A stretch of DNA of 64,000 nucleotides from Tetradesmus obliquus (taxonomy: Eukaryota > Chlorophyta > Chlorophyceae > Sphaeropleales > Scenedesmaceae), in assembly GCA_030272155.1 (NCBI GenBank), contig CP126192.1, positions 8,714,501 to 8,778,500 on the forward strand. Direction: 5' to 3'. Positions 511 to 51,437 of this stretch are shown one piece after another (positions within the stretch are counted from its first letter, which is position 1; each line of letters opens with the position of its first letter). The notes below the pieces were generated by a model. That model ran no database searches and was not told where the DNA came from. It worked only from the letters and a program-made list of their open reading frames with translations. Made by a program: the position numbers and the translations under genes.

Positions 511-2120
511 GGCAGGGCAGCGGGCACAGTCAGACCAGTATGTGGTGCCACAGGTAATTCAGGGCTCCTGCTGCAGCAGTGCAAGTCTGTTTGTGCTGCT
601 GTCGTGTGCGTTGCATCTGTGCTGTGGCCCTGCTTCCCTTGCCTGCTGCTGCAGGGACTGCCAGCAACCACGGCTGATGCTGACACGCTGCTGCTACCAC
701 GGCCACTGCAAGGTCACCCCAAGCCGCTGCATTCAGCACCCGCAGCTGCACCAGTGTTGCCAAGACCCGTTTCCACCACATGCCTGGCACTCCCCACCCA
801 CCGATGAGTGCAAAGGCCAGCCCCGCCCTCGGAAGAACAAAGCCTCCCCACCCCTCAGCGCCAAGGCCAGCCCCCTTCCTCACCGATGAGTGCAAAGGCC
901 AGCCCCGCCCTCGGAAGAACAAAGCCTCCCCACCCCTCAGCGCCAAGGCTAGCCCCCTTCCTCGCCGATGAGTGCAAAGGCCAGCCCCGCCCTCGGAAGA
1001 ACAAAGCCTCCCCACCCCTCAGCGCCAAGGCCAGCCCCCTTCCTCACCGACGAGTGCAAAGGCCAGCCCTGCCCTCGGAAGAACAAAGCCTCCCCACCCC
1101 TCAGCGCCAAGGCCAGCCCCCTTCCTCACCGATGAGTGCAAAGGCCAGCCCTGCCCTCGGAAGAACAAAGCCTCCCCACCCCTCAGCGCCAAGGCCAGCC
1201 CCCTTCCTCACCGATGAGTGCAAAGGCCAGCCCTGCCCTCGGAAGAACAAAGCCTCCCCACCCCTCAGCGCCAAGGCCAGCCCCCTTCCTCACCGATGAG
1301 TGCAAAGGCCAGCCACACAAGGCCCATGCCCTGACACACACCAGCCACCAATCAGTGCTTACGCTAGCCCCTGGCACTCTAGAACCAACACAGCACCGCA
1401 GCCGCTCACCAATGAGCGAAAAGGCCAGCCCCGCCTGGCCCATGCCCTGATACACACCAGCCACCAATCAGTGCATGTGGCAGCCACGCGTACCTATCAC
1501 CAACAGCGCAGCCATGCACCAGTGAATGCGAAGGCCAGCCCGCACTCCTAAAAACAATAACACAGACAGCCGCTCACCGATGAGTGCGAAGGCCAGCCCC
1601 GCCAGGCCCATGCCTGCGCCCAGCTCTATGGCACGCTTGCCGCTGGCCTTGGGCCGGCTGAACTCGCCCTTGCGCATGTTCTGTGATTGTAGGTGGTGGT
1701 AGCAGGAGGAGCAACAGATAGTTTAACGCACGCAACTGGGGCAGGACGCTGAGACCAAAAGTGCTGGCTGAACTCCCCCTTGCGCATGTTCTGTGATTGT
1801 AGGTGGTGGTGGCAGCAGGAGGAGCAGCAGGGAGTGTAAGTACGAGGGCAGAGGCAGCAGGATGAGGCTGTCAGAGGGCAGCTGAACTCGCCCTTGCACA
1901 TGTTCTGAGTTTGGTTGTAGCAGGGTGGCAGGGCAGGGTAAGGCGCAGGAGCAGTAGGAGGCGGAGTTGCACGCTGCTGTTGTGGATGCACTGTGTCACG
2001 CGCGCATGTATGTACTACTGCTGCCATGAAGCTGATACTCGCGCTGCTGGTGCCTGTGCTGGTTGCAGTGTGCAGCGCAGCTGTCCCGGAAGAACAATAC
2101 CTTCCTCCTTGTGCCGCTGC

Positions 2121-2168
<48 letters not shown>

Positions 2169-2373
2169 GCCTGCTGTGCCTGCTGCTGCTGCGCCTGCTG
2201 CTGTGGGACCCTGCAGTTCCAGGAGTTGTACCCTCCCCCCCCCTCTCCAACCCCCATCGCAACACTGCTGAACAGCTGATTGTGCAGGTTACACTGTGTG
2301 CAGCCATCACATGCAGCAGCAGTGGTGCCGCACCTTCTCAAAGAACTTGGCCAGCACGATGCTGCCACTTGTG

Positions 2374-2409
<36 letters not shown>

Positions 2410-3796: not shown

Positions 3797-5882
3797 ATGC
3801 GAGTCCAAGTCGGAGCAGTTGTAATGCTTGGGGCCCTGCTGGCGCTAGCGCAGCATGCACAGGTACACTAAACTTACCTAATCGTATATAAATGTTGTTT
3901 TACGCTGCGATGTCAGCCGCTGGACGTGAACTTGCTGTGATGAGCAGCTTGCTTCCGAAAGGGCTGCAGGTCTGACAGCAGGGCTCATGATGTGCAGGCA
4001 CAACCAAGCGCCTCGTTCAGCTGGATGAGGAACAACGACCGTACAACGTGAGCAGCTGTGGGAGGACAGCAGCAGCGGCAGAGCAGCTGAGACAATGGCA
4101 GCAGCGACAGCAGCAGTAGCACCAGCAGCAGCTAGCAGCACTGCTTACTCCTATGTCAGTGCTGCAATTGTTTCGTACTAAAAAATCTTATTCGCAGCAT
4201 GTCGGTGGCTTAAGTAGCCACAGCTTACCCTGCTTACAGCCAGTCTGTGGTCATGGTGACGTAGCCGCATCAAGCCCCCTCAGCAGCAGCAGTGCAGACA
4301 GCCACCATAGGTGACAGCAGGCTGGACAAGACATGATGTGACTGAGGCATCATCAGATGCGCTATCGCAGCTGTGGGCTAATGCTCTTGATGGGTGGCCT
4401 GATGTTGCTGCTGGTGATGTTGTCCGACAATTCAACTGACCACCCACGCTGCTGACAGCTCCCTCTGCTGGCTGTGATGCTGGCGCTCACGCCTGCATGT
4501 TTCAATGCTGAATAACATGAGTTGCATGCCGTTCTAAGCACAATATTGTTTGCTGGTTGTGCCACCGCAGCTGGATCAAGCTGCTGAACACGCTGGACAT
4601 CACGGAGCAGAACATCCCCAGCAATGCACCCATGACGGCGCTCGTGCCATCCAACAAGGTGACACGCAGCACAGCAGCCGCTCTACCTGCGTAAATTTAG
4701 CATCAGCAGCAGCAGCAACAGCCGCAGCTGTGCCCGCTTGCCAGCAGCAGCAGCAGCAGCAGCCGCCCTGCAGGCAGCAGAGGTGGCAGGCTGTCACCAA
4801 CAGCAGCGCAGCAGCCTCATATGGAAAGCAACAGCAGCAGCCCTGCTGACAGCAGCTGGTGCGGTGGTTGCTGTTTGAACAAGCAGCAGGCCAGCTGCCT
4901 GCTGGCCAGAACAGCAGCGCTTGCAGTGGGCTGTGCTGTACCGCCCCTGCCGAGCTGCAGCAGGCACCAAGCAGCTGCAGCCAGGTAGCCGCCCGTGACG
5001 CCTGGCTCCGACTGCTACTTTGAATTGAGGTCAAGCTGCTGCAGCTGCTTCTGTTGCATCCTGTAGCAGCAGCCGGCAGGTTGCAGAGATCATAGTAGTC
5101 AAACAGAAAAAAGTGGGCCGCGCTCCGCTGTGCTGCGTGTGGCTCTGCGTCGGCCCTCACTTGCTGCCTGCCTGCCTGTTCTTGGTTGGACGTGTTGTCT
5201 GACCAGGCTGTGGCGGCGTTCCTGAGCCGGCTGGGCATGACTGAGGACGAGTTTGTGAAGCGCAAGGAGCTGGTGGACCTGGTCACTGCCTACCACGTCA
5301 TCCCAGGTGAATGTCTCTCAATCGCGCTGTGGATGCATGTTAGCATGCATAACGCTGGTATTACTCTTCACCTGCATGTTATAACATATCAAGCGCAAGA
5401 GAGCTGGTGGACCTGGTCACTGCCTACCACATCATCCCAGGTGGGAGCCAGCTTGCACTTTCTGACCTGCAACTGCTGTGCAAACAAGCTTGTACATAGC
5501 TAGTGGACCTAGATACATCATGTCATCCCAGGTGGGGCATATGGATTGATATTGCAGCACGCTGCCGACAAAAGCAATGTGTGCGTGCAAATGTCTGGTG
5601 GGCATGTTTCATTGCCTACCACGTCATCCGATGTGGAAAGTGTGTGACAGCACGCCAAAGTTGCAGGCTTGTGCTTGCATGCCAAATGCTGTCTGACATG
5701 GTCAGCCCGGCAGCCCTGCCACAGGTGCATGCATCCTGCGCAAGCATACCATCCCAGCCGTTCCTCTTCATCAAACAGTGATGTGGCGGTTGTGGCTGCT
5801 GCTGTTGCCGTAGGCTTCCAGGCAAAAGGCCCTTGGGACATCCCTGAGAACCCCACGCTGGCAGTCACAGGTGCGCCCTGGC

Positions 5883-7259: not shown

Positions 7260-9239
7260 GTTTCCATGTGTCATCAACTGGGTCCTGCTTCCTGCTGCTG
7301 CCAGTGCTCCAAGGTACCTGTACATCTGCACTTCTGCATTTTGTTTTGGTAGCAGTGTCAACCTCGCAGTGGCATGGCAAGGCACGTTGACATACAGGCA
7401 GAGTGCAAGTGCCAGGGTGTTGCCTAGTGTCGTGATGATGACAGTGCCTAGCTTGCCGCTGCTGCTGCTGCTGCCGTGCAGTGCTGCTGGTCAGCCCCCT
7501 GTGGTGAAGTTCATACCTGAGGAAGGGCCCGCAGCCAGCGTGACCATCTTCAACATCTACGTGGGCCGGGTGAGCGCCAGCAGCAGTGGGCAGCAGCAGG
7601 TGGCAGCCGCAGCAGCAAGCAGCGGCATGCAGCAGGGCATGCCAGGTGTTCTGCCTGCTTTTTGAAGGTGCCTGTCATGCATGCTGCAGCTGTGGGTAGA
7701 CGTTATGTGCATGGGGTATGCACTGTGGTGCTGTGTGAGGGCTGGCACAAAAAAACATCCAGTACGTTCGGTGCCCTTCTCCTGGTTCAGCGCGCTGGTG
7801 GTCCAACCGCCAGCAGTGCTGACAACCGCGCTCCTGCAGCTGTGTGATGCTTGCTGAGTGGTTCTGCCTGCCGTGCCGCGGTTGTTCCCAGCAGCAGCCT
7901 GTGCCCTACATGGCTATACAGTTGCCGACTACGCATGTATACTGCACATGAACCGCAGGGCATCTTCCAGGGCATCGACGGCTTACTGAACCCCAATTGT
8001 TACTTTGTTTCTAAACCCAATGCAGGGCATCTTCCAGGGCATCGACCGCCTGCTGAACCCCAAGCTGGCGGGCCAGGGCATCGCTGACGTGAAGCGGCCC
8101 AAGCAGCTGCCAGCGGGGCGGCGGCTGCTGCTGGATGACGCGCAAGAGGATGGTGGGTGGTACTGTTTTTGCAGGCACAGGCAGGACAGCTGTTTTACAT
8201 GAGTAGTCGGCAATCGTATAGTCATGTAGGGCACAGGCTGCTGCTGGCTGCAGCGCACGAGAACCGTGGGTGGAGCACGAAGTGGGCAGGGCAACGGCAC
8301 ACACGCATTGGAGGCGTTGAAGCGGCCACATTGTAATGCCTGCACCTGTCAAGGGGCTTGCTAAAGTCCGGAAGCAGGCTATGCTTCCTGTTGTACAACC
8401 GTTGGCAGGTATCGGATGCAATTATTTCTTCATTGACAACTTCAAAATGATGCCAGGCAACCTCAACAGCTGCTGCTGCTGCTGCTGCTGCTGTTTGTGT
8501 GCCTGTGCAGCCGCTGCTGGCGCAGGCAGGTTGCTGCTGGCTGCCAACGCCTCGCCAGGCTTCTACCAGGGCAGTGCCAACACCATGGCAGCCAGCAACA
8601 CAGCAGCAGCCATTGCAGACGCTGCCAATGGCCGCATCCCAGCAAGCTACGCCACCAGGTGGGCGGATGGCACACTCCAGGCCAATGCAACAATGAAGAA
8701 TTGAAATATTCACCACTTAGGTATAGCCGTTCTAGACCAGTAAAAAAGGAGACTGTATGAACTGTACGCGACGTACGTTGGCTGTATGCTCGCTTATGAG
8801 TTGTTTAAGCCGCCGGCGGCCTTCCCACCAGCTATGCCACCAGATGATCTGGCCATCCACACTGTGTGCAGCCACAACATGCCGGTGCAGTGGCGTGAGT
8901 GGGCGCGCTCAAGGCCAGTCACGCTGCAGAGCTCCTGCATTACCTCCAAAATGCTGCTCCCAACGTGATGCAGTGCGTGCAACTGCTGCCCATGCTCTGT
9001 GTTTGTGCTTGCCCGCACTGCTTGCTGCCGCCTGCTGCGCAAACGTGCATGCCAGTTACGGCAAAGCCATGAGCAAGTCAGTCAAGTTGCTGCCCGCTGC
9101 CTGAAACCATGTGTTTGGATGTTTGATACTGCGTTTGCTGTTGTGCTTGCTGCTGCCTGATGCCAGGTATGGCACAGCCATGACCAAGTCGGTCAAGTGC
9201 TACAACTGCTTCCTGTGGGCAGACTCACAGCAGCCTTGA
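3797..9239 (+). CDS. Secreted fasciclin (FAS1) two-domain protein
   Basis: Twelve exons: 3797-3862, 3998-4047, 4571-4658, 5207-5306, 5814-5870, 6173-6323, 6584-6711, 7030-7210, 7482-7569, 8026-8152, 8511-8658, 9167-9239. They total 1257 nt, 418 aa, with all phases consistent. Exon 1 encodes a signal peptide (MRVQVGAVVMLGALLALAQ). FAS1 domain 1 spans about residues 39-172 (TALVPSNKAV near 62; TAYHVIPG near 95; ISVIPISRVLL at the end). Domain 2 spans about 175-315 (VTFLVPDNAAF near 208; closing GIDRLLNP). A roughly 100-residue tail follows with no clear TM or GPI signal. FAS1 domains mediate adhesion in extracellular matrices, so a wall or matrix role is likely. The two short exons at 3998 and 5814 are inferred from phase and motif continuity. 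Introns carry copies of exon edges (5399-5640, 7960-8000, 9043-9105). Confidence 0.85.
5395..5640 (+). repeat. Copies of FAS1 exon-4 3' edge with donor
   Basis: The last ~45 bases of exon 4 (KELVDLVTAYHVIPG) with the GT donor recur almost intact at 5399-5446, and in decayed form near 5500-5535 and 5610-5640, all in the intron just downstream of the true donor at 5307. Confidence 0.8.
6951..7028 (+). repeat. (CTG)~26 tract abutting a 3' splice site
   Basis: An almost pure CTG run ends in CTGCAG and merges directly into the exon beginning at 7030, so it occupies the polypyrimidine-tract position of that acceptor. Confidence 0.9.
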
Positions 9240-11020: not shown

Positions 11021-12647
11021 ATGTTGGCAACCAGAAGATGTACAATAGTTGGTTGCAGCTTGCGCTTGGCCCCACTCAGACCAGCAGCAGCACTGGGCCG
11101 CTGCGCAGCAACAGCGAGCAGATCAGCAGCATCGCGCCCCTGGTTGCCCCATCAGCCACTGCAAAACACCTGGGTGGTCAATGCAGGTGGGCTTCTCCTG
11201 AGTTGTAGGACAGCGTATGTATGTCAGCAGCTGTGGCGCTGCAGTGCACGAAATTCAGCAGTAGCTCCAACCGTGTGTGCCGCCACACTGGCAGTTGGCA
11301 GGACTGCCTGTTGCTGTGCACACCAAGCATTCATGGCAGGAGTGGACACCTGTTGCAACGCCCTACTGCGCATTATTATGCATTGATGCACCATGTCTTA
11401 CATACCATAATGCTGCTGCAGCGTCTTTTGGAGGGTCTGGCAGCGGTAGTGGCAGCAGCGGAGGCAGTGGCGGTGGCAGCGGCGGTGCAGGAGGCAGCAG
11501 CAGCAGCGGCGATAACAGCAGCCCTCACCGCATGCGGCCGTGGACGCTGGCCTACGCGCTGCTGCTGGCTGGTGAGAGTTGGGGCGACATCGCAGCAGCA
11601 GCGCAGCAGTAGGCAGGCAGTTTGCGGCAGTTGCTGCTGACTGCAAGCGCTGCAGGAGTAGAAAATGCCGTGCATTCAGCTGGCGTGCTGCTGGGCAACG
11701 GCAGCTGTAACCCAGGCAGCTGATGTGCTGATACGCAGCAAAGCACATATTGCACCAGCAGCAGCACAGCGACAGCCGCAGCATGCTTGCATGGTTGGTT
11801 TCCTTGCACAGCCATGCAGCATGCATGTGCCCAGGCAGCAGCGCAGTAGAGCGCCACGCCCTCACTACACATGCTGCAGCTGCTTGTGCCATCAGCTGCT
11901 TTCAACCCTCGAACACCCAAACAACACAGCGCACACGCACTGCTGCTCGCGTGCTTGCTTGCGCGTGCTTTACAAGGGCAGCAATATTCAAATGCAACCT
12001 GCATATCATTGCCGTTCACAGTGCTGCTCATGTTCCTACAACTACCCCCTGCAGCTGGCGGCGTGATGGCGTACGCAAAGAAGGGCAGCAATGTTCAATT
12101 GCAACCTGCATAACCACTCTGCTAACGCACTGCTGCTCATGTTTCATTCACAATATGCGTGCAGCTGGCGGCGTGATGGCGTGCGTGAAGAAGGGCTCCA
12201 CCAAGTCATGTTGATATTCAAACCTGCTTGACCTGTCTTTTACCACCGCTGCTAATGGTCCTTTTGCCACCCTGTGCAGCTGGCGGCGTGATGGCGTACG
12301 TGAGGATAGAACACACACACTGCTGCTGCTCATGTAGTGGATGATGCGTTGCCTGTGTTTGCTTGTGTGCTTTTGCAGCCGGTGGCGTGATGGCGTACGT
12401 AAAGAAGGGCTCCACCAAGTCGCTCACCTCTGCAGGCGGCGCAGCGCTCATCCTGGCCCTGTCAGCACGCAGCATGGTGGGCCCAGCAGCCAAAGGCAGC
12501 CTGGCGGTGTGCCTGGCCATCGCGCTGCTGCTGAGCGTGATCATGTGCGGCCGCTACAGCCGCACGCGCAAGGTCATGCCTGCGGGGTTGACGGCGGGTG
12601 TGTCGCTGGCCATGGCTGCCGCCTACCTGGGGTGCCTGTTTGCGTGA
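11021..12647 (+). CDS. FAX-like (Tmemb_14) plastid membrane protein
   Basis: Exons 11021-11186, 11422-11571 and 12379-12647 total 585 nt, 194 aa, in phase. Residues 1-55 are rich in Ala, Arg and Ser with few acidic residues, like a chloroplast transit peptide. Residues ~57-90 form a Gly/Ser low-complexity linker. After this come four hydrophobic helices of the Tmemb_14 fold, starting PWTLAYALLLAGGVMAYVKKGS and ending AYLGCLFA at the stop. Plant FAX proteins of this family export fatty acids from the plastid inner envelope; that role is inferred from family membership and the transit-like N-terminus. The mitochondrial or ER TMEM14 type is the alternative. Three decoy copies of the exon-3 acceptor edge precede the true exon, and two copies of the stop-codon edge follow it. 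A TGTAA signal lies at 12967-12971. Confidence 0.82.
12050..12310 (+). repeat. Three decoy copies of the FAX exon-3 5' edge
   Basis: Starting near 12055, 12166 and 12281, the acceptor and first codons of exon 3 (GGVMAYxKKGS, with small changes) are repeated at ~110-bp spacing before the true acceptor at 12378. The third copy diverges after MAYV. Confidence 0.85.
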
Positions 12648-14119: not shown

Positions 14120-17100
14120 CAGGGTGTCCCGCGTGCTGCTGCCGCTGCTATTCCTGGCCAGCATGCTCAACTACCTAGACCGCGGCGCCATCAGCTTTGC
14201 GGCACTGCAGATGAACGGCCAGCTGGGGCTCAGCCTGCAGGACTATGGGTTGGGCAGCGGGCTGTTTTTCCTGGGTGAGATTGCAGCGATGCCACTTTTG
14301 TTTAGTGGCACACCCGGTGCTTTAGCTGTGCCTACAGGTGGTTGTGTCCTAGCAAGTTGAGCCAGTTGAGTTTCTGATGACTTTGCCTTCTCACGTGCCT
14401 GCCTGCCTTGCTGCCTTGCAGGCTATGGTGTGGCCATGGTCCCCTCCACGTGAGCACCGCCCCTGACAGCTGATGCACTGCCAGCGGGTTTCATGCCCCT
14501 GACAGCTGATGCACTGCCAGCGGATGTCATGCCCCTGACAGTTGATGCACTGCCAGCGGATGTCATGCCCCTGACAGCTGATGCACTGCCAGCGGATGTC
14601 ATGCCCCTGACAGCTGATGCACTGCCAGCGGATGTCATGCCCCTGACAGTTGATGCACTGCCAGCGGATGTCATGCCCCTGACAGTTGATGCACTGCCAG
14701 CGGATGTCATGCCCCTGACAGCTGATGCACTGCCAGCGGATTTCATGCCCGGAGCGTCCAGTTGCCCAGTCTGTAAGCTCTGCACTGCTTGCAGCAGCAG
14801 CAGCAGTAGCAGCAGCAGTGGTGGCGGCAACAGCGCGCCATGCTCAACCTCCCCCATTGCAGCAGCCTGGTGCAGGGCATGTGATGCCTCGCAACCCATT
14901 GCAGCAGCCTGGTGCAGGGCATGTGATGCCTCGCAACCCATTGCAGCAGCCTGGTGCAGGGCATGTGATGCCTCGCAACCCATTGCAGCAGCCTGGTGCA
15001 GGGCATGTGATGCCTCGCAACCCATTGCAGCAGCCTGGTGCAGGGCATGTGATGCCTCGCAACCCATTGCAGCAGCCTGGTGCAGGGCATGTGATGCCTC
15101 GCAACCGCTGTGCCACTGTGCCTGCCGTGACAGCCAGTATGTGCTGCTTTGGTGCGCGCACTGCTTTGCTTGCTTGCAGGTACCTGACGATGCTGTATGG
15201 TGCAAAGTGGTACGCAGCCATCACAGTGGCCTGGGGCGTGGTGGCGGCATGCTGTGCATTTGTCACTTCAAGGGCAGGCTTCTTTGCTACACGGCTGCTG
15301 CTGGGGCTGGCTGAGGCGGGCGCCTGGCCCTCCGCCTCACACTTGCTGTGCCAGTTCTATCCAAGTGACAGGTGGGCAGGGGGTGCGGCAGCAGCTACAG
15401 CTCACACTAGTTTGATTAGTCTGTATGGCTCCTGCCCCCTCTCCTTGTAACATGGCAGAGGTGGGCGCCTGGCGGTCCGCCAGCCACCTGCTGGCGCCAA
15501 CAACAGGCCAACACAAGGCCAACAAAAATGGTGCATTGAATGCAGTAAACGCTGCAGCGACCCATCTCAAGGTGGCCGGGGCGGGGGCCTGGCCCTCCGC
15601 CAACCACCCGTTGTGCCAGTTCTATCCAAGCAACAGGTGCGGCCGCACCAGCTGCATAGACGCAGCTCGGCTGGTTGCACAGGTGTTGGGCTTGCTGCAG
15701 ACAAGGTGTTGTTGCCATTGCATGTGCGCAGGTCGTGCGTAGATACCTGGCCTGGTTGCCTTGTGCCTGCTGACATCGGCTACTGCTGCTGCTGCTGCTG
15801 TTGCTGCTGTATCCTGCGTGCTGTTGCCGTAGGCTGACCAGGCTGTGTGCAGTAGTGTGCATGCCATCAGTTATTGCGGTGGTGTTTGCTGCCCCGCGCC
15901 TGTTGACGTGGCCCCTGCTGCTGATGTTGTTGCTGCTGCTGCTGCTTTGCCCTTGCCCCTTACTGCAGGCTGACCAGGCCGTATGCAGTGGTGTGCGTGT
16001 CTTCGGTGATTGCGGCGGTGTTTGCTGCGCCGCTGGCAGCAGGGCTCATGTCGCTGGACCAGCGAGGAGGGCTGGCAGGCTGGCAGGTGGGGGGGCCGCC
16101 AGCATGGCTGGCAGTCTGTCTGCCTGTCGAAGCTCGTGTCATGCTATGTTTGCCCAGTTGTACACGGTGGCCTCGGCTGTGTCCTAGCAAAAAGACTAAA
16201 GCAGTGTCGCGATGCTCGCACATTGCCACTAGCAGCGCCTGTGTCGGCGGCCCAGCCGATGAAAGATACTATGCAGGCACCCCCTTCCCCCCTCCCTCTG
16301 CTGCAAACATCCTGCAGTGGCTGTTCCTGGTGGAGGGCGTGCCCTCAGTGCTGCTGAATGGCCCAAGCTCGGCCAGTCAAACTGGTTGCAGGCATTGTTG
16401 GCCAGGAACCTCACAGTGCCTTTCAATTCTGCTAATGTGTGTCCTGCAGTGGCTGGTCCTGGTTGAGGGTGTGCCCTCGGTGCTGCTGTGTGCCCCATGC
16501 TCGGCCACTTCAACCATTTTGCACTCAGCATTGGCTGGGCACTGAGCCTAACACTGCCACCTCACTGCTGCAACCTTCTGCCCTGCAGTGGCTGTTCCTG
16601 GTGGAGGGCGTGCCCTCAGTGCTGCTGTGTGGCTTAGGCTCGGCCAGTCAAACTGGTTTGCAGCCAGTGTTAGCCAACCTCACAGTGCCTTTCAACGCTG
16701 CTTGCTGTGCCCTGCAGTGGCTGTTCCTGGTGGATGGTGCGCCGTCTGTGCTGCTAGGCCCAAGCTCGGCCGGTCAGTTTGTTTTGCAAGCAGGGCTGGC
16801 ACTGAGCCTAACACTGCCCCCTCACTGCTGCACACACTCACCCTGCAGTGGCTGTTCCTAGTGGAGGGCGTGCCGTCAGTGCTGCTTTGTGGCCCAAGCT
16901 CGGCCAGTCAATTTTCTTTTGCAGCTAGCGTTAGTCAAGACCCTCTCAGTGCCTCTCACAGCTGCACACACTCACCCTGCAGTGGCTGTTCCTGGTGGAG
17001 GGCGTGCCCTCAGTGCTGCTGTGCTTTCCCCTTTGCCTCGCGCGTGTTGTTAAGCTCGGCCAGTCAAGTTGTTTATTAGGTAGCGTTGGCCGAAAACCTC

Positions 17101-17266
17101 ACAGTGCCGCTCACTGCTGCTCGCTGTGCCCTGCAGTGGCTGTTCCTGGTGGAGGGCGTGCCCTCGGTGCTGCTGGGCATGTGCTGCTGGGTGTGGCTGC
17201 CCAGCAGCCCACTGACTGCAGCCATGCTGAGCAGGGAGGAGGGCCAGCTGCTGCATGAGAAGGTGA

Positions 17267-18189: not shown

Positions 18190-18227
<38 letters not shown>

Positions 18228-19180
18228 CAACAGCCACACACAAGAGGCCACACTCCTAACCGCCATCCCATACGTGTGTGCCACAGCAGCAAACCTAGCC
18301 GTTGCCTGGCATGCAGACAGGGTGAATGAGCGGTCGCTGCACACCGGCGTGCCGTTTGTGCTGGGTGGTGTTGTGCTGAGCTGCTTCACTGTGTTGACAA
18401 GGCTCAGCTTTGCGGCTGGCTTTGCTGGGCTGGTGGTGGCTATGACGTGTGCCTATGCAGGCCAGAGCACGCTGCTGGCAAGCGTGGCAGGTGGGTGTGA
18501 GCAAATAGGCGTTGCCACAGCAGTGTTCATATGTGTAAACCATGCTTGCTTGAGAGCTGAGACAAGTGTTGTGACCATCTGCTGGTCAGAGAGTGGCAGT
18601 TTTGAAGGTCTTTGCATGTTGTCAAAATGTCGCCTTAGGGTCAGCTTTGCGGCTGGCTGTGCTGGGCTGGTTAGTGGCCATGACGTGTGCCTACGCAGGC
18701 CAGACCACGCTGCTCGCAAGCGTGGCAGGTGAGTCAGAAAGTTGGAGCATGGATGCTGCTTAGCTGGTTAGTGGCCACGACGTGTGCCTACGCAGGCCAG
18801 AGCACGCTGCTGGCAAGCGTGGCAGGTGGGTTGGAGCGCAGGCGTTGCCACAGCAGTGTTCTTATGTGTACAAGATTCTTGCTTGAGAGGTGAGACAAGT
18901 GTTGCGACCATCTGCTGGCCAGGTAGTGGCAGAAATGCAGGTGCACGCATGCAGTCAGGTCATCATTCATGGGATGGCGTTTCGGCACTGTGCAATGCGC
19001 ATTGCTGTGCAGGACAGCAGTGTGAAACTTCAGGGCAGACCCAAGCAATGCTGGTTTTAACTGTCTCAGCGGCTGACGAGGAGCATTGTAGACGGCCATG
19101 CTCTGGGCATCCTGCTGTCAAATGAGTGGCTGTAGGTTTTACATGTTGCTCAGCATTGTACTGCTGCTGCTGCCGCCGCC

Positions 19181-20548: not shown

Positions 20549-22483
20549 GTGGCAGCAGCGTCAAAGTGAAACACAAAGGCTCTCTACTAGCACCAGCTGG
20601 TCCTCGCAACAGCTGTGTCTCATGGCGCAGGGTATGAACACCAGCATCCGTTTTGTTGTTGTCAACAGCCAGCAGCTCATCACGTTGCAGCTCCAGCCTC
20701 AGTTGCTGTGCCTGTGGCACCAACCGCGACCACTGCCGCGAGACGCAGCATGCATGCTACTACCTTACGCAGCTCACAAGCAGTGGTGCCGAGCACATAA
20801 ATCCAGGCTGGATGTAGTGCAGTGGCGCCAGCGGCCCTCAACAGGACCTTGCCTGCTAACTGCAGTGCCTGCCCTCCCCCACCTGTGTGAAAGCGTGCTT
20901 CATGGTGTTGCTGCCCCCAGAGGCCAGGCTGCTGTTCAGTTGCTGCTGCAGCTTTGGTTACCGACAGAATGCTGTGGCACCTCTGCACTAGTGCAGTACT
21001 GCATGCACGCAGCATGCATGCTGCTGCCACGTGTCGCAGCTGAAAGGCGCAAACGGCTCACATGCTGCACCACAGCGACCCGCGCGTGAAGTGCAATGCA
21101 GTGGCACTACTGGGCAACACCCTCATCTGACATTTACACCTCGCCTGCCAGCTAGCTGGCAGCTGCCGCGGTTCAGCCCCCCCCCCCCCCCCCCCCCCCC
21201 CCACCTGTGTGAAGGCTTGCTCCTTGGTGTTGCTGCATCACCGTAACCCATGCTTGAAGTGCAGTGCAGTGGCACTGCTGAGAAACACCCTCAGCTAGCC
21301 CTAGCCTGCCAGCTGCAGCTGACCCACCTGTGTGAAGGCGTGCTCCTTGGTGTTGATGCACCACGGCAACCCGTGCTTGAAGTGCCCTAATTGGGGCAGG
21401 GTTACAACCCTAGCCCTAGCCTGCCAGCTGCAGCTGACCCACCTGTGTGAAGGCGTGCTCCTTGGTGTTGCTGCCTCCACAGGCCAGGCACTGCGGGAAC
21501 TCTGCGCTGGTCTTCCAGCGCCCTGCCCACTCGTTGACGTCCATGACTTTGAAGCCGCTGCCGAGGCTGGGGTTGATCTCTACTGGAGAGCCAGCCAGCA
21601 CCTGCAATGACATCAGCAGCAGCAGCAGCAGCAGCAGCAGCGGTAGCGGCAGCGACAGTAGCAGCAGCATTCAGCCTCATCCATGACCTTGAGCCCGCTG
21701 CCTAGGCTCAGGGTGATCTCCACGGGGGCACCAGCCAGCGCCTGCAATAACAGCAGCAGCAGCAGCAGCAGCAGCGGCAGCAGGCCGCCCACTCGTTTAC
21801 GTCCATGACCTTATAGCCCCTGCCCAAGCTGGGTTGATCTCAACAAGGGAGCCAGCCAGCACCTGTAGGGGCAAGGCGGCGGCAGCAGCAGCAGCATCAG
21901 CAGCAGGAGCAGCAGGGAAGCAACCCAGCAGGCATTGGTATTGTCCAGCGAACGCGATGGGCACCTGGTGAAGGCTGGAGGTGCCTGAGCCAGGCTACAG
22001 CCAGCTGAGCCGGACAAGCTGCACACAAACCTCATGATGAGAAATGCGGTGCAGTGTTGTTCATTGTCTGTATATCATTCGTGCTACAGAACCAGCTCAG
22101 TAGTATGCAAGATGTGCGACTGACGTGCTGCAGCCTTTGGCTTACTGCACACTGTGCAGCTGCAACCTGGGATGTGGGTGATGATCGTCAGCATTAGGCC
22201 TTGAAAAGCTCTTCAAATGACAGCCTCGTCCCTCATCTGGCAGACTCTGAAACTGTTTGCAGGTTTTAAAGCTCGCAGAAGGTCCGTGACAGTCATCCTG
22301 CTGCCATTTCAGCTGCAGCAGCAGCTGGTGTCGTTGCTGCTGCTGCAGTAGTGCTTGTTGTGCGCAGCGCACCTTGGCCCACTCTACTCGATGCACCTTC
22401 ACTTTAGGGGAGTCGTTGACTGATGTTTCAATGTCTGCCTGCAAGTCTTCATTGTACTTAGGCACAGCAGGCGTCGAAGACAT
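20337..22483 (-). CDS. Small conserved protein with zinc-ribbon-like cysteines, function unknown
   Basis: Minus-strand exons 22483-22373, 21601-21443 and 20492-20337 give 426 nt and 141 aa, all in phase 0. I do not recognise the family. Visible features are a polar N-terminus (residues 1-37) and the aromatic motif NEWAGRWKTSAEF (60-72). CLACGG (C75, C78), WCRGK (C93) and CLDC (C105, C108) follow, then SWRGYRDPDFKTPEQYEKERW near the end. The CxxC...CxxC spacing suggests a metal site. Exon 1 is the least certain: its reading frame is open upstream to a possible acceptor near 22508, so a further 5' exon may exist. Exon 2 has extra copies of its 5' edge upstream and of its 3' edge downstream. Confidence 0.65.
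20500..20548 (-). repeat. (CAG)n tract, CTG in gene sense, before an acceptor
   Basis: A CAG run on the plus strand reads CTG on the coding strand and ends at CCGCAG, the acceptor of the last exon (20492) of the minus-strand gene. Confidence 0.85.
20879..21365 (-). repeat. Three copies of the exon-2 3' edge of the cysteine-motif gene
   Basis: Near 20881-20920, 21203-21240 and 21327-21360 the minus strand repeats the codons for NTKEHAFTQ plus the GTGGG donor, downstream of the true donor at 21442. Confidence 0.85.
21177..21202 (+). repeat. Poly-C tract, 26 nt
   Basis: An uninterrupted run of 26 C lies within the intron of a minus-strand gene, so the pre-mRNA carries 26 G, a strong potential G-quadruplex next to a decoy donor copy. 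Confidence 0.95.
21680..21865 (-). repeat. Two copies of the exon-2 5' edge of the cysteine-motif gene
   Basis: Diverged copies of the acceptor and first ~70 bases of exon 2 lie at about 21680-21747 and 21787-21863, upstream of the true exon start at 21601. Confidence 0.85.
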
Positions 22484-22747: not shown

Positions 22748-25286
22748 CTATTGAGGTATTCTCTCCAGCACCGAGCCGGCCATCAGGCTCACCGGCAGTG
22801 CTGCTGCCTTGCTGCTGCCTGCTAACCCGCCCTTTGCTGCTGCTTCACCAGCTGCTTTTAACTGCTCGTTTTCCTCTGCATCTATGTACCTGTCCTGCAA
22901 GTTGGCTGCCAGCTCGTCATCTGCTGCGCTGTGTGCTGCACCAACCAGCAGCTCTGCAGGGGCCCCCACAGGCGGCGCATCAAGCTTGGCATACACAGCA
23001 CCATTGGCCTTGTCAACCAGCGCCAGCAGCTGCTTCATTGACGCCTGGTCCTGCACAGCAAGCAGGCAGCCCGGCAGGCGGCATGGTGCAGGAGTTTTCA
23101 GTAACTAGTGCCAGTCAACCAGTGGCAGCCGCTGCTTCATTCACGCCTGGTCCTGCGCAGCAGACAGGCAAGTAGGCAGCAAGGTGCAGGACTTCACAAT
23201 GGATTTCAGATCAGCCATGTCATGCCAACAAGTGCTCAGCTGTCCCAGCCATGTCATGCCAGCAAGTGCTCAGCTGTCCCAGCCATGTCATGCCAGCAAG
23301 TGCTCAGCTGTCCCAGCCATGTCATGCCAGCAAGTGCTCAGCTGTCCCAGCCATGTCATGCCAGCAAGTGCTCAGCTGTCCCAGCCATGTCATGCCAGCA
23401 AGTGCTCAGCTGTCCCAGCCATGTCATGCCAGCAAGTGCTCAGCTGTCCCAGCCATGTCATGCCAGCAAGTGCTCAGCTGTCCCAGCCATGTCATGCCAG
23501 CAAGTGCTCAGCTGTCCCAGCCATGTCATGCCAGCAAGTGCTCAGCTGTCCCAGCCATGTCATGCCAGCAAGTGCTCAGCTGTCCCAGCCATGTCATGCC
23601 AACAAGTGCTCAGCTGTCCCAGCCATGTCATGCCAGCAAGTGCTCAGCTGTCCCAGCCATGTCATGCCAGCAAGTGCTCAGCTGTCCCAGCCATGTCATG
23701 CCAGCAAGTGCTCAGCTGTCCCAGCCATGTCATGCCAGCAAGTGCTCAGCTGTCCCAGCCATGTCATGCCAGCAAGTGCTCAGCTGTCCCAGCCATGTCA
23801 TGCCAGCAAGTGCTCAGCTGTCCCAGCCATGTCATGCCAGCAAGTGCTCAGCTGTCCCAGCCATGTCATGCCAGCAAGTGCTCAGCTGTCCCAGCCATGT
23901 CATGCCAGCAAGTGCTCAGCTGTCCCAGCCATGTCATGCCAGCAAGTGCTCAGCTGTCCCAGCCATGTCATGCCAGCAAGTGCTCAGCTGTCCCAGCCAT
24001 GTCATGCCAGCAAGTGCTCAGCTGTCCCAGCCATGTCATGCCAACAAGTGCTCAGCTGTCCCAGCCATGCTGGGCGGTGCATATGAGGCAGTCAGCTGCT
24101 ACATTTTTTCAGCAGCACACACGCCAGCTGCATACTGCAGCAGCCCAGCAGCACCTCACAAGCCCAGCCCCAGAGCCCACCAGCACCAAGACACCACATC
24201 TGCAGGACTCGCATGTTGACCGTGCCCTGCACCGTTGCAGGCTGCCTCAGGCACCCCTGCAGCTTTAGTGCAAGCAGCACACCGCGGCACCTGCACCGCC
24301 AGTGGCCCGAAGCCCACCAGGCTGTAGCGCTCCCCCAGCTCGCACATGTGGCAGCAGATTACACTTGCAGGCCCCCGCCCCCGCCAGAGAACAACAAAAG
24401 CCCCGGCCAGAGAAAGAGAAACAAACATGCAACTCCTTAGTTTGTGGGCCTGTGGCCCTACTTTGGTAAATAGTTGGTGAATGGCTCCTTAGTGGGTGGG
24501 CCTGTGGCCCTGACTGGTTGGTGATTGGCAACTGAACTTCACACTGGCAACTTAATCACACCAACACCGTCAGCGGTTAATACTCACCAGCCCGCAGCCC
24601 TCCACCAGCAACGGGCAACACCATGCAGCCAGTGAATCCTCGACGCATCTGCTGTTACACTGCCTCGCACCTGCACCGCCAGTGGTGTGAAGCCCACCAG
24701 CCCATGGCCCTCCACCAGCCAAGCAGCAGCCATTCATTTAGAACTATGAACACCATCACTTCTGCAGGCTACCCAGAGCACTTCATCCCACCTGCACTGC
24801 CAGCTGCGTGAAGTCCCCCACCAGCACACACAGTAGCTGCATGCTGCAGCAGCAAAGCCAGCATGCAAGCCACAGGCACAGCCCACCTGCACCGCCAGTG
24901 GCGTGAAGCCCACCAGGCCGTATCCCTCCACCAGCTCGCACAGCCCTGCGCTCAGCTTGCGGTAGCGGGCGCTGAAGGGCCCGCCGCCCATGGCTGCCAG
25001 CAGGTAGGACAGGTCCTGCACCTGCGTGTAGTACTCCAGGCTGAACGCTGTGGGCAGTGCGGCAGGCAGGGGCAGGGCAGGGCACAGCAGGTGGTGGTGG
25101 GTTGCAGGGATGCAGCAGAGATGCACCTGTGTGTAGTACTCCAGGCTGAAAGCTGCGATTTGAGAGAGTGCAAGGAGAATATGCACCCAGGGGAGGGCTG
25201 GGCAGGGCAGGGCATGCGGCGGTGGGTTAAGGGGATGAAGCACATGCACCTGTGGGTAGTACTCCAGGCTGAAGGCTGCGACGTAC

Positions 25287-25320
<34 letters not shown>

Positions 25321-25668
25321 CAGGGTAAGTTACTCCGAACTGAAGGCTGCGGGTGGCAGTGCGGCAAGCAGGGGCAGGGCAGGGCAGGCGATGGCGGGTT
25401 GAGGAGATGAAGCATATGCACCTGCGTGTAGTACTCCAGGCTGAAAGCTGCAGTGTGCCCAAAAAAGCAGCAGCAGGGCAAGGCAGGTAGGTGCTGGTGT
25501 GTAGCAGGTCCTGCACCTGCGTGTAGTACTCCAGGCTGAAGGCTGCAAAAGGCAGTGCGGCAAGCAGGGGCAGGGCACGGCAGGGCAGGGCATGCGGTGG
25601 TGGGTTGAGGGGATGAAGCAGATGCACCTGCGTGTAGTACTCCAGGCTGAAGGCTGGACGTACACACG

Positions 25669-25703
<35 letters not shown>

Positions 25704-28211
25704 CAGGTCAAGTCACTCCATGCTGAAGGCTGGGGGTGGCAGTGCGGAAGGCAGAGGCAGGGCAGAGCAGGGCAGGCAGTGGTGGGTTGAACGGATGCAG
25801 CAGAGATGCATCTGCGTGTAGTACTCCAGGCTGAAGGCTGCAACGTACGCAAGACAGCAGCAGCAGGGCACAGTAGGTAGGTGCTGGTATGCAGTGGTTG
25901 GTAAGGTCCTGCGTGTAGTACTCCAGGCTGAAGGCTGCAAAAGGCAGTCGACAAGCAGGGGCAGGGCAGGGCAGGGCAGGCGGTGGTGGGTTGAGGGGAT
26001 GCAGCAGAGATGCACCTGTGTGTAGTACTCCAGGCTGAAGGCTGCGAATTGAGAGAGTGCAAGGAGAACATGCAAGCAGGGCGAGGCAGGGTGGTGGTGG
26101 TGAGGCGTTGCAGCTGGAGCGGGAGGTAAGAAACCAAGACGTGTTCAGCAATGCAAGTGGAGTGACGGTTGATGCTGCAGGTGGCGCATTGGCAAGATGC
26201 TGCCATAGCTGCGCTGGCACCCACGCACACAGGCATGCGCGAAACAGCTACCCTGCCGCCGCTGTGCTGCAGCCAGATGCAACGTTTCGCACAGCTGCCT
26301 GCTGTATTTATGATCTGAAAGCCTTGCACTGCTGGCGCTGCTAGCGCTGCTGCTGCTGCGGCGGCGGCGGCCTGATGCAGTGAACTTTGTGCTTACCCAG
26401 CTGGCCGTATTGCGGCACCAGGTCCACCTTGGACAGCACATGAACATGAGGCAGCTCCAGGTGCAGCATGTTGGCATTCTACTGCCCAAGCTGGCTGCAT
26501 TCTCCCATCCTGTGCCGGCACGCATGCACACGGCACCAGATCCTGCATGTGCTGTGCTGCAGCGGCATGCACAGCTGCACCCAAGTACTCAACACCACTG
26601 TTGTAGCTGTTATGTATGTCATTGTGCAATCAGCAAGTGGTTTTGTGCTCACCCAGCTCCCCGTACTGCGGCACCAGGTCCACCTTGGACAGCACGTTCA
26701 CATGTGGCAGCTCCAGGTGCAGCATCGTGCTGAGTGACAGCAGCAGCGCGGAGATGTACCTGGGAGCATCACATAACATGACAGCAGGCAGGAGTGAAAA
26801 GGTACGCACGCAGGGGTGTGATGCGCTGGTGAGCAGCAAAATGCTAGGCGCTTGCAGCAGCACCAGCTGCGGAGTGATCTGACAAAATACAAGCACATAG
26901 ACCAAGAGTCACAGTACAGCCGCACTAAGCTTCAGCCACATGCAAGCCAAGCACGCCAGCCGTCCGGAGCAAACAACAACTTCAGATGTGCACTTGCTCC
27001 TACAGCTGTGCTGCTGCTATGCAAGAAGCTGCCTGAAGTCCTTGTGCCTAGCCCTCTCTGCCACTCACTTGCTGGCGTCTGTGGCCAGGTGTGCATCAAT
27101 CAGGTGCACCGCAGCCAGCCTGTAGCCCCAGCCGCCTGCCTGCTGCCCTGCCAGTGCTGCCAGCAGCTGCTTGAAGCCCGTGTGCTGCGTGAACAGCTCC
27201 ACCTGGCCTGGGCAGTCAATCAGCAGGTAGGTGTTGCCTGCGCAGGGGGCAGCAGGCGGCGGCAACACAACACGCAAAGTCAGCAGCAGCTGCTGCATCA
27301 GAAGCTCCACCTGCTCGGGTCAGTAAATCAGGAGGTAGGTGTTGCCTAAGAGGGGGCAGAAGGCAGCGAAGCAGCAGAACATGCAAAAGGTAGTAGTTGG
27401 GACTGTAGCTGCGTGAACAGCTCCACCTGCCCGGGACACTCGATGAGCAGATAGGTGTTGCCTGAGAGGGGGAAGCAGTACATCTGAACACCTTTATGAC
27501 ACTGGTGCAACTGCCGCTGCTGTCTGCCGCTGTCAACTTATGGCCTTGCTGCATTGCCTACTGCTGCCTGCTTGAAAATTTACTGCCTTTGCACTGCAGC
27601 AGCGCTGGCTGCCGCCCACTCACTGTCTTCCAGGGGCGTCAGCTTCTCCTTGAGCCAGTCCAGGTTGGCTGCCAGGTACTCCATGCAGTACAGCATGCCT
27701 GGCAGCAGCAGCAGCAGCAGCAACAAGACCACATTGACGGACACAAAAAGCAGCGACAACAGCAACAGATAGTTGGCTTGAACTCCATCAACAGTGCCTG
27801 CTGCTGCAACATGTGAGCGCAGGCAGACGCCTCGCCTGCTGTAGGATGCACCAGGCCCCTGAGCTGTGTGACAATCTCTAAGACAAATATCGCATATGCA
27901 TTCTGACCACCTCTACTGCCATGCATCTCCTGGTAGCAGTACCAGCCAGCTCTTAATATTGCAGTGTCACTGCCCAGCCTGGCCAAGTGCTCACCGCCAT
28001 TTGGCCCCAGCTGCAGCTCTTCCATTACTGTGTCCAGGCACACCAGCTCTGCAACGTCAACTGCCGGGGTGTACGGCAGAACATCGTTCGCGGGATCCAG
28101 GTTGACGATAGCTACTCGCCGGCCCAGTGCTGACAAGTACTGCTGCATGCCATGGCAGTAGGTGGTCTTGCCGCTGCCAGGGGGCCCGATCACGAGCTGC
28201 CCGAACAACAT
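22748..28211 (-). CDS. GPN2: GPN-loop GTPase 2
   Basis: Minus-strand exons 28211-27995, 27698-27624, 27237-27069, 26759-26653, 25047-24887 and 23050-22748 total 1032 nt, 343 aa, in phase. The P-loop is GPPGSGKTT (9-17). The family-defining Gly-Pro-Asn insert is at residues 69-71. G3 is DCPGQVE (105-111) and G4 is SKVDL (178-182). The C-terminal part reads [13 protein letters not shown] (exon 2) and [16 protein letters not shown] with [10 protein letters not shown] across exons 5-6, as in GPN2. GPN GTPases dimerise and help assemble and import RNA polymerase II. The last ~80 residues, rich in Ala, Glu and Asp, are less conserved. Exon-edge copies surround exons 3, 4, 5 and 6, and intron 5 also holds a 34-bp minisatellite. 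Confidence 0.93.
23215..24069. repeat. 34-bp minisatellite, about 25 copies
   Basis: Near-perfect 34-bp units (one or two show CCAACA in place of CCAGCA) fill 855 bp of GPN2 intron 5. Because 34 is not a multiple of three, each frame cycles through all three readings and stays open; the 300-386-codon ORFs here are artefacts. Confidence 0.95.
24280..24720 (-). repeat. Copies of GPN2 exon-5 3' edge
   Basis: At about 24290-24345 and 24669-24715 (a weaker one near 24575-24610) the minus strand repeats the end of exon 5 ([13 protein letters not shown] region) plus the GTG donor, downstream of the true donor at 24886. Confidence 0.82.
25120..26050 (-). repeat. About ten decoy copies of the GPN2 exon-5 acceptor edge
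   Basis: The minus strand repeats the acceptor and the codons for [11 protein letters not shown] near 25160, 25275, 25455, 25545, 25655, 25840, 25945 and 26045, with truncated copies near 25345 and 25735. All lie upstream of the true exon start at 25047, at ~100-bp spacing. Intervening stretches (CGGCAGGCAGGGGCAGGGCA type) are shared too. Confidence 0.9.
26388..26470 (-). repeat. Copy of GPN2 exon-4 3' edge with donor
   Basis: The minus strand repeats codons for [22 protein letters not shown] with one or two changes and a GTAAGC donor, about 250 bp downstream of the true exon-4 donor at 26652. Confidence 0.85.
27296..27462 (-). repeat. Two decoy copies of GPN2 exon-3 acceptor edge
   Basis: Near 27405-27460 a copy of the acceptor and [17 protein letters not shown] remains open. 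Near 27296-27353 a second copy has an in-frame TGA in the DCPGQ motif. Both precede the true exon start at 27237. Confidence 0.88.
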
Positions 28212-48500: not shown

Positions 48501-51437
48501 TACTGTTAGCCTGGGCGCCTGCTGCATGCCTCGCAGGTCACGGCAAGCTCCAACTGCAGCGGGCTGCCGCTGCTGACGGCAGCAACTACAGACATAACAA
48601 CAGTGCCGCGCCCCACAGTCACAGTGCGCTTGGCCAGGCAGCCGCCGCCAGTGTGTGGCGGCAAGCCAGCAGTTGTGGCATACCAGTATACTGTGATTGG
48701 CCTGCAGCCTGGCCAGGACTTCGACCTGAAAGCACAGGTCGGGCCCAACTGCACAGCAAACCTGACATCCAGTGAGTAACTGGGAACCTGCAGGGCCTGC
48801 AGGACAAGTTGTCTTTCTGGAAGGATGCATGCAGAGCACATCAGCCAACATGCCAGCAGGCTGGCTGCGGGCGTAGCTGACTGCCTGCTACTAGCAGCAG
48901 ATGCCATGCTATGCAGCCTACTGGATTGTGAGCTGTGTGCAGCAAGCAACCCTGGGGCAGCAGCTGAGCATCTCTATATGCAACTGAAAGAGTTGCATAT
49001 ACTGAAAAAGTTGCAGGAATGCCATGCTGTGGAGCTGTGCCGGTCGCTCACGTTGCCCTACCGCTGCTGCCGTCGCTGTTGCTGCTGCTGCTGCTGCTGA
49101 TGCTGATGCTGATGCTGATGCAGCCCCCAGCAAGGCAAACGGCACTGCGGTTGTGACCTGCAGCGGAGCGTTTGCTCCGGGAGTGACTGTGCTTGTGGGG
49201 CTCAACATCACAGCAACCACACCAGGCTGCGGTGCAGCCACAGGTGAGCAGAGTGTGTGTGGCAGCTGCGGCACTGCGTGCTGTGGCTTATGATCAAAGC
49301 TGGCTGGCCTCGGCGTTGCACTCACCTCATGCTACCAGCATGCCAGTGGCATGGTTGATACCAGGCGGACTGAAGTAGCAAGCAGATGTGTCTGTGGGTG
49401 CATGCAAAGGCACAGTGCATGCACAGCACGTGCATTCCCTTCTGCCATGCCGGCCATGCATGCACACCATTCAAGTGTTAAAGTGTGAAGTGTGAACACA
49501 CCACGCGTAGCTCATTCATTCAGACCTTGCCCGCACCCGCCAGCATGTGCCGCACTTGCTTTGGCAACCATCCAACACCGCATTATGGTTGACCATGGTA
49601 TGCTTTGCGGACTGGGCTATCCTCTTTGTGCAGGTTCCGCGAAGGGCAACGTCTCGGTGTTGTGCTGCACGCGTGGCAGCAGCTACGCAAAGACCGGCAG
49701 CAGCACCGCCAAGGCCAACTGCTTCAAGCACGTGCGGCCAGGCGCTGCAGGGCCCCAATGCACCAAGGCACCCGCTGCCTCTGGCTTCTTCAACCGAGGG
49801 CCGGGGGCTGGCAAGCTGTTTCTTGCTCAGAACGCCAGCAGCTGCACCGATGTGGTTGGTGTTGGCAGCGTGAGGGTGTCATGCCCGGAGGGTGGTGCAG
49901 CCAAGAGGCTGCTCTTCAAGCTCGTCACTCCGGCACCGTACAGGTGAGCTAGCGGCAGGTGGTAGTTTGTATGTGCGCTGCTTTCTCTTTCGTTCTGACA
50001 GCACACTGTTGATGGAAGGCCATGTCTTTGGTCATGTGTGCTGACTGTGCTGCAGTGCTGCAGCTGCTGTGAAAAGTGCCGCTGCCGCCCTTTTGAGTCC
50101 GCCGCTTGCCACGCCATGCAGGCCAGGCCAGGTGTTTACTTGCCTTGCATTGGCAGCACGTGCATATGGCTGCCCAATGAGCTGCACTGCCGCAGTCTTC
50201 CTTATAGCTGCTGCTTCGGCCTGCGTGCTTTTGTCTGTATTGTGCGCTGGGTGTGTTGCAGCTGTCGCTGACATATGCGCTCCGCGCGTGCCGGTCCTTT
50301 GAGAGGTGCTACTGGGTGGGCTGCGCAGCGCCTGCCTGCCGACAGCGTGGCTGCCCTCTCAACTGCTGTTGCGTCTGTGCTGCTGCGTGCACTCTGCGTG
50401 TGCAGGTCCTTTGAGAGGCGCTACTGGGTGGGCTGCGCAGCGCCTGCCTCCTCAGCTGCATGCCCCGGGAGCACCCGCTGGATCCGCATCAACGCCACAT
50501 CCGCCCTGGAGTTCAATGTGACCGCCCCAGCTGGCTGCAGCTGTGCCAGCGCGTACCATGGCATTGTGGACTTTGCAGCCTACAGGAGGCTGCCGCTGAG
50601 CGCGTGCGGCAAGTGATGGATGAAGATGTCAGTAGCGGCTGCAGCGAGCTTGCAATGTTTGCGCAGTCAAGTGGCACATTTGAGTTATGCCTCTTGATGA
50701 ATTGTAAATGCATGTTGGACGCCCGAGACTTTTGAAGCTTTGCTGTACATGATATCTATACATACCGACACAGCTGGCTGCAGCTGTGCCAGCGCCTACC
50801 ATGGCATTGTGGACTTTGCAGCCTACAGGAGGCTGCCGCTGAGCGCGTGCGGCAAGTGATGGATGCACGGCCAAGTGGCACTATAGCTATAGAGAGTGCG
50901 CTCACATGTGTCACGCTTGAGTCATGCGACTTGATAAATGATTATGATTACCACCTGCATGGTGTACGTCTACGTCTTACTCTGGAGCTTTGCAACCACA
51001 TATTTGCACACAATAGGCACGCCGTTGTATGGCATGAGCTGGGCTTCAGCTTGAGCTGGATAGTCTGGTGGCACAGTGGTTCGACTTGTTGGCAAATCGT
51101 CTACAGGGAATGCTGTGTTTGCAAACGCATGTGGCATGGTTCAGCCTGATATGAACGGCTGAGCACGGAGGAGCTTTTCCAAAGGTTTTTGTGTACTTGC
51201 ACACGCATATTTATGAAAAAAGAACCATTTTATACGGCATACACATGTAACAGTTGCTGCGTTGCAGCACAACATGCATGCGGTTGAGTTTGTGCGTCCT
51301 GGTGGTACGTTTCATATGCGACAGAAGTGTCTGCAGGGAACTGCGCGCTGACAAGAGCATGTGACCTGCAGCTGCAGCCGTTCTTACCCACCCCCATCGC
51401 CACCAGTGGCCGCCACCGTCAGCCCTGTGCTGTGCAG

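Follow-up and report, generated by a model that had tools for sequence, protein, structure and literature searches.

Copies of exon edges and their splice sites in the neighbouring introns of Tetradesmus obliquus genes

Results

The DNA considered here (the window) is a stretch of 64,000 nucleotides (nt), C2:8714501-8778500, on a nuclear contig of the scenedesmacean green alga Tetradesmus obliquus (genome of 104.66 Mb in 17 contigs). Several genes of the window carry, in their introns, copies of the edge of a neighbouring exon together with its splice site. We analyzed these copies in a sample of 314 kb from three contigs of this one genome, made up of the window and of pieces of C1 (200 kb) and C11 (50 kb). 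The spliced MFS protein encoded in the window corresponds to T. obliquus OEZ86_001249 (P0001), with 100% identity over 97% of the query. The spliced alignment of this annotated protein gave the MFS exons exactly. The other exons are our own predictions, obtained with a gene-structure model trained on the same 314 kb. This model often fuses neighbouring genes, sets the start of GPN2 exon 5 about 30 nt late and calls intronic copies exons. The 22 predicted exons that resembled a neighbouring exon were dropped before the main counts, which are made on 544 borders; four of the 22 came from a single C1 model that seemingly spans two similar adjacent genes, and these may be true paralogous exons. 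Low-complexity stretches were masked in the repeat tests. CAG/CTG trinucleotide runs are very common across the whole window. Eight gene pieces, most of them with copies, were scanned against Pfam; six gave a match (Methyltransf_16, Fasciclin, Tmemb_14, E1_dh, JmjC and TerC) and two gave none. The edge copies of the window are as follows.

802..1541, minus strand: nine donor-edge copies of exon 1578-1677 of the methyltransferase gene (Methyltransf_16, Pfam PF10294), most of them in an 82-nt array
5395..5629, plus strand: two donor-edge copies (5395-5440, 5595-5629) of exon 5207-5306 of the fasciclin (FAS1) gene (Pfam PF02469)
7959..7996, plus strand: acceptor-edge copy of exon 8026-8152 of the FAS1 gene
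12057..12301, plus strand: three acceptor-edge copies (12057-12086, 12167-12207, 12282-12301) of exon 12379-12631 of the FAX (Tmemb_14) gene (Pfam PF03647)
15592..15636, plus strand: donor-edge copy of MFS exon 4 (15180-15371)
15833..15877, plus strand: acceptor-edge copy of MFS exon 5 (15969-16086)
16311..17021, plus strand: six intronic copies of the MFS exon 6 acceptor edge, starting near 16318, 16450, 16589, 16718, 16849 and 16983; TRF period 134
17137..17262, plus strand: MFS exon 6, the true exon of the six-copy array, from the exact spliced alignment of P0001
17756..17910, plus strand: two donor-edge copies (17756-17793, 17873-17910) of MFS exon 7 (17529-17658)
18684..18825, plus strand: two donor-edge copies (18684-18728, 18781-18825) of MFS exon 8 (18098-18490; exon from the P0001 alignment)
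Within 20883..21862, minus strand: three donor-edge copies (20883-20927, 21209-21239, 21328-21367) of exon 21443-21601 of the cysteine-motif gene
Near 21820-21862, minus strand: acceptor-edge copies of the same exon, about 261 nt upstream of its border; another lies in predicted exon 21688-21741, from reading of the translation
23114..23152, minus strand: acceptor-edge copy of GPN2 exon 6 (22793-23050)
24291..24824, minus strand: three donor-edge copies (24291-24333, 24671-24715, 24792-24824) of GPN2 exon 5 (predicted 24887-25015)
25127..26039, minus strand: eight intronic copies of the GPN2 exon 5 acceptor edge; matched piece of the true edge at 25022-25045
26397..26439, minus strand: donor-edge copy of GPN2 exon 4 (26653-26759)
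27303..27461, minus strand: two acceptor-edge copies (27303-27345, 27417-27461) of GPN2 exon 3 (27069-27237)
50294..50855, plus strand: acceptor-edge copy (50294-50337) and donor-edge copy (50811-50855) of exon 50406-50612 of a gene of unknown family

Out of the 19 copied edges named in the initial annotation of the window, 16 were matched by position, with exon numbers from our own models. These are one methyltransferase donor (taken as exon 2), the FAS1 exon 4 donor and exon 10 acceptor, the FAX exon 3 acceptor, the MFS acceptors 5 and 6 and donors 4, 7 and 8, both edges of exon 2 of the cysteine-motif gene, and the GPN2 acceptors 3, 5 and 6 and donors 4 and 5. The remaining three, FAS1 exon 12 and the two edges of methyltransferase exon 3, were not reproduced. 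At a lenient threshold, 20 of the 113 borders tested in the window alone have copies; three of these 20 belong to predicted exons that themselves look like copies (16794-16878 twice, 21688-21741 once), and the donor of exon 8026-8152 sits at the threshold. The six MFS exon 6 copies lie at -819, -687, -548, -419, -288 and -154 from the true acceptor and all carry the CAG. For the GPN2 exon 5 acceptor, a pattern search allowing at most three mismatches returned nine matches, the true edge and the eight upstream copies, with 0 expected by chance. Between predicted GPN2 exons 5 and 6 there is also a 34-nt minisatellite (23212-24069, 25 copies, 99% identical), a recent interior array beside the edge copies.

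Over the 314 kb, copies were found at 65 of the 544 predicted borders of the cleaned set (about one in eight, ~12%), at similar counts for acceptors (33/273) and donors (32/271). The 128 copies are spread over 19 of the 29 gene models, so the phenomenon does occur in many genes, as had been proposed. It is general but uneven, with copies at 16/92 borders in the window, 26/346 in C1 and 23/106 in C11. Most copy-bearing borders have one copy (36 borders) or two (14); three copies are present at eight borders, four at two, six at three and seven at two. The prolyl oligopeptidase gene of C11:2000001-2050000 (minus strand, ~35.5-47 kb in strand coordinates) is unusually dense in edge copies, and nine of its predicted exons were dropped as copies.

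The side on which the copies lie is almost invariable. With a score threshold of 36, and counting without the cleaning that led to the 544 borders, the first 30 nt of the exon were copied upstream at 33 of 257 acceptors and the last 30 nt downstream at 30 of 254 donors (window included), and copies on the wrong side were seen at only 1/218 and 2/215. This upholds the rule that acceptor edges are copied upstream and donor edges downstream. Under the same settings, segments starting 60 nt inside the exon were copied at 0/221 acceptors and 5/221 donors, and those starting 75 nt inside at 0/195 and 1/190. None of the 544 edges matched a paired intron of another gene (one random partner each). Segments of the intron interior are repeated too (394/4844, 8.1%, the copies in border arrays being counted in). 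Borders are thus more often repeated than intron interiors, yet the excess is modest, about 1.5-fold. Before cleaning, 110 repeat families were observed against 12 in block-shuffled introns; 70 of them join a border and an intron member, 36 are interior only and four exon only. We did not use the preponderance of border families (70 against 36) as an argument, because it predates the removal of copy-like exons and because interior copies are harder to detect. Interior duplications do exist, some with similar spacing.

The geometry of the copies is that of tandem units laid across the border. The copied exon part has a median length of 43.5 nt, and each of the 65 copy-bearing borders has at least one copy that reaches the border. 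Copies are spaced by 80-160 nt in 95 of 128 cases and by 180-260 nt in 24. The nearest copy lies 80-160 nt from the border at 45 of 65 borders and 180-240 nt at 14; only one is closer than 80 nt and none is farther than 265 nt, in a search extended to 1500 nt. The inner breakpoint is shared, within 3 nt, in 54% of 136 within-array pairs and in 11% of pairs from different borders. The spacers of the units are homologous (identity 0.546 against 0.359 for unrelated spacers, 28 arrays), and homology of the intronic flank exceeds the 95% null at 37 of 64 borders. Side specificity, shared inner breakpoints and homologous spacers bear out the proposal of frequent local tandem duplication across exon borders. 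We therefore hold firmly that the copies originate by tandem duplication of units straddling a splice border, which is tolerated if the surplus copy ends up within the intron. Introns with copies are also longer, with a median of 602 nt (58 introns) against 335 nt for those without (216 introns). The suggestion that copies lengthen introns is accordingly sustained, but that they create new splice sites or exons is not; the proteins read carry each edge once (see below).

The statement that most copies keep the AG or GT proved correct, with 116 of 128 (GT in 61/65 donor copies, AG in 55/63 acceptor copies). Among the copies that keep them, median splice-site scores approach those of the true sites, being 6.5 for acceptor copies, 7.0 for true acceptors and -0.1 for random intronic AG (55 AG-bearing copies only), and 6.1, 6.8 and -0.2 respectively for donors and random intronic GT (61 GT-bearing copies only). 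At the inner end of acceptor copies the frequency of GT (0.317) is close to that of the control (0.305), and AG at the inner end of donor copies is mildly raised (0.583 against 0.429). Because their inner ends show no donor signal, acceptor copies are not complete exons, which rules out complete alternative or mutually exclusive tandem exons; one apparent whole-exon copy was found, at C1 69755. The distance to the border is a multiple of three at only 18 of 65 borders. Use of a copy would therefore usually shift the frame, and frame-preserving alternative splice sites can be dismissed as well. An in-frame stop is present in 7 of 120 copies, where 10.8 ± 2.8 would be expected if the differences were random.

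The homologous proteins read carry each edge once. This is the case for four GPN2 proteins, among them one of a different T. obliquus strain and two taken from the transcript assemblies GHRQ01 and GHUV01, and for three oligopeptidase proteins of relatives, one of them transcript-derived. These homologues support use of the outer, true sites, minor isoforms being outside their reach. The counter-case is P0002, the MFS protein annotated in a second strain (OEZ85): its coding sequence takes in one copy, the spacer and the first part of the copy that follows. This is probably an annotation error caused by the array. Since P0002 runs through part of the MFS array, the array is present in the assembly of the second strain too, and an assembly error is unlikely there.

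The copied block and its spacer differ sharply in conservation. When intronic copies are compared with each other (28 arrays), mean identity is 0.871 in the exon part, 0.856 in the splice site and 0.546 in the rest. Identity stays at ~0.9 through the exon part and the first 4-5 intron bases and then falls to ~0.55 within 1-2 bases. This step at the splice consensus was measured both ungapped (12 acceptor and 15 donor arrays) and gapped (28 arrays, the means including one, win 18490, that was misaligned to zero). A neutral minisatellite is expected to diverge equally along its unit, unlike the 0.871 and 0.546 seen here. In a neutral simulation with a similar detection filter and an assumed indel rate, the two parts remained nearly equal: where the exon part was at 0.88 the rest was at 0.88, and at a divergence of 0.20 per lineage they were at 0.63 and 0.56. 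None of the five simulated divergences yielded both 0.87 and 0.55. On the copy-to-copy comparison and the simulation together we reject pure detection bias.

Differences between copies and exon fall mostly at third codon positions. In the closest copies the rates at positions 1/2/3 are 0.047/0.037/0.141 (62 of 65 borders, those with an ungapped match). Leaving out the C11 oligopeptidase gene, which is rich in repeats, gives 0.048/0.035/0.132. Variants private to a single copy are distributed 34/33/60, those private to the real exon 1/2/26 (26 third against three first or second), and those with at least two members on each side 2/1/21 (21 against three). Shared variants thus differ from private ones (21:3 against 60:67, third to first or second; Fisher p 0.0002). 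Per base, in the closest copies, C and G differ in 4-5% at positions 1-2 and 9-11% at position 3, A in 3% and 42%, and T in 4% and 35%. The rate is higher at position 3 for all bases, so that position rather than base drives the difference, and mutability due to base composition is ruled out. Recent change in the copies looks largely free, whereas older variation seems to have gone through a coding filter. Because most copies are incomplete exons and their distances mostly do not preserve the frame, this filter would be the neighbouring exon, acting through exchange between exon and copy. Four-gamete violations occur in 7 of 33 site pairs, in four of the seven arrays with at least two informative sites. 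In one array of C11:2000001-2050000 (minus strand, near 39270) the exon differs from all four copies at the third base of five consecutive donor-side codons, with hardly any other difference, which amounts to a local burst of silent change.

Elsewhere in the window, one 17-residue predicted peptide is encoded at both 42306-42360 and 63797-63851, ~21 kb apart, which suggests a longer duplicated stretch.

Discussion

Two features had not been noted at first: the copied block and the spacer of the same unit evolve differently, conservation changing in a step where the splice consensus ends, and the older variation of the copies looks coding-filtered. The reading that we favour, at slightly less than even confidence, has two steps: tandem duplication straddling a border, followed by recurrent gene conversion between exon and copy. 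In the first step, visible in outline, a unit usually of 80-160 nt or 180-260 nt that straddles a splice border is duplicated in tandem and often amplified; as the outermost functional site stays in use, the extra copies sit in the intron and the protein is unchanged. In the second step, to which taken alone we give about an even chance, the exon-derived half and the splice consensus would go on exchanging sequence with the exon in use, through short-tract gene conversion or an equivalent template switching, while the purely intronic half would drift out of homology and leave the exchange. Exchange from exon to copy would refresh the copies, and exchange from copy to exon would expose bad copies to selection. 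Such two-way exchange could account for a block of exon edge and splice consensus that stays young, has no gaps and is filtered for amino-acid change. In favour of this second step we count the contrast between block and spacer among intronic copies and its step at the splice consensus, the retained AG or GT, the third-position excess of shared variants and of those private to the exon, and the four-gamete violations.

Several observations weigh against this reading. Conversion is deduced from sequence patterns, no event having been seen directly, and the tracts, 40-90 nt long, are short for homologous recombination. The closest copy has no flank homology at 27 of 64 borders. The third-position bias does not reach significance in the window by itself (p 0.13), and private changes in the 11 arrays with at least three copies are flat (15/12/16), with no sign of selection after birth. 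For the latter reason, and because the excess may reflect change in the exon lineage, we do not claim the third-position bias as proof that copies are translated. By our own reasoning, simple refreshment from the exon caps the third-position excess below 2-fold, against ~3.4-fold in the closest copies, and thus selection on the copies or a diverged source must be added. The four-gamete violations fit exchange without proving it and could come from repeat mutation or dimeric units. Finally, the four-fold difference in age that separates exon part from spacer is an undated estimate from the simulation and its assumed indel rate.

The main rival, which we consider unlikely, is direct constraint: edge copies would be candidate functional splicing elements, for instance decoy acceptors or donors that slow or tune the removal of long introns, and selection would retain their splice sites along with the exon-like sequence next to them. 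Decoy exons in retained introns have intronic splice sites that look functional and are not used productively; they are not known to copy the edge of the neighbouring exon. A decoy role would fit copy splice sites that score like true ones, far above random intronic AG or GT, the AG or GT kept in 116/128, a conserved block that stops at the splice consensus, and nearest copies that almost never lie within 80 nt (1/65) and never beyond 265 nt. However, it would leave the amino-acid-level filter unexplained. Also against it stand acceptor copies that are not complete exons (GT 0.317 against 0.305), the only mildly raised AG of donor copies, a frame shift at most distances (18/65 multiples of three) and in-frame stops in 7/120 copies against 10.8 ± 2.8 at random, and the transcript-derived homologues read show each edge once.

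Somewhat less probable still is plain neutral tandem duplication, with arrays decaying as ordinary intron and with both the border excess and the sharp block being detection effects of the conserved exon side. It explains side specificity, the decay with distance into the exon, the longer introns and the flat private changes in larger arrays, and it agrees with the occurrence of interior duplications, some similarly spaced. It fails because two intronic copies still share 0.87 identity in the exon part and splice site against 0.55 in the rest, a combination reached in 0/5 simulated divergences, and the 21:3 ratio of shared variants at third positions also disfavours it. The least probable of the three is a diverged-allele source, i.e. 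recent unequal exchange between homologues with synonymous differences and strongly diverged introns: it would account for deep differences mostly at third positions, flat private changes and diverged spacers, but the only intron stretch of the second strain that is readable, via P0002, differs at 2/34 translated residues, so that the introns of these two strains are less diverged than this requires, and arrays of up to seven units with mutually diverged spacers would need many events.

In intron gain by tandem genomic duplication, the new intron opens with a copied start of the next exon and closes with a copied end of the previous one. The algal introns differ from this arrangement in that an existing intron holds copies of its own borders, on the same side. 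Tandem duplication near splice motifs has been described as altering exon-intron structure (PMC4974935, PMC2891723), and human segmental duplications contain internal tandem repeats at exon-intron boundaries, with effects on gene structure and potentially on splicing (PMC2812944). The view that no named process produces such copies was therefore too strong, as boundary tandem repeats (PMC2812944) and intron gain by tandem duplication (PMC4974935) have been described. Compared with the human boundary repeats as presented there (PMC2812944), the alga has copies at ~12% of sampled borders, splice sites kept in most copies and a block more conserved than its spacer. Introners are repeated intron sequences, with green algae among their hosts, and are dispersed as mobile copies (PMC9860276); the main text of that paper does not mention Tetradesmus or Scenedesmus. 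Introners carry sequence dispersed among the introns of unrelated genes, whereas the algal copies are local to one border, with 0/544 cross-gene matches in 314 kb, on which ground introners were rejected. The dual-specific splice-site arrays of polyubiquitin genes are tandem repeats with a splice site per unit (PMC10809524); there the units are whole ubiquitins spliced in variable number, whereas those of the alga are partial exon edges. We recognised no report of the exon-edge copy pattern in the literature searched, which is weak evidence of absence as most subscription journals were outside its reach. The alga's case differs from the nearest described systems in frequency, in same-side geometry and in a conserved block that ends at the splice consensus.

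If general, the copies would be a trap for gene prediction: 22 of our predicted exons resembled their neighbours, and the annotated MFS protein of the second strain holds a copy. The conservation step at the splice consensus makes exchange between coding and non-coding copies open to direct test. T. obliquus has a mean intron length of 462 bp against 230-302 bp in four other green algae, according to one published table (PMC5966456). If the pattern extends genome-wide, tandem duplication spanning borders would be a major force behind the long introns of this alga, and the arrays would form a natural test bed for the way a cell chooses among several equally strong splice sites. More tentatively, and with doubt prevailing, exons may continually trade sequence with arrays of their own edges in the flanking introns, these arrays being kept readable through such feedback or through a decoy role, so that a sizeable part of the splice borders would possess a conserved duplicate in the intron, missing from the annotation.

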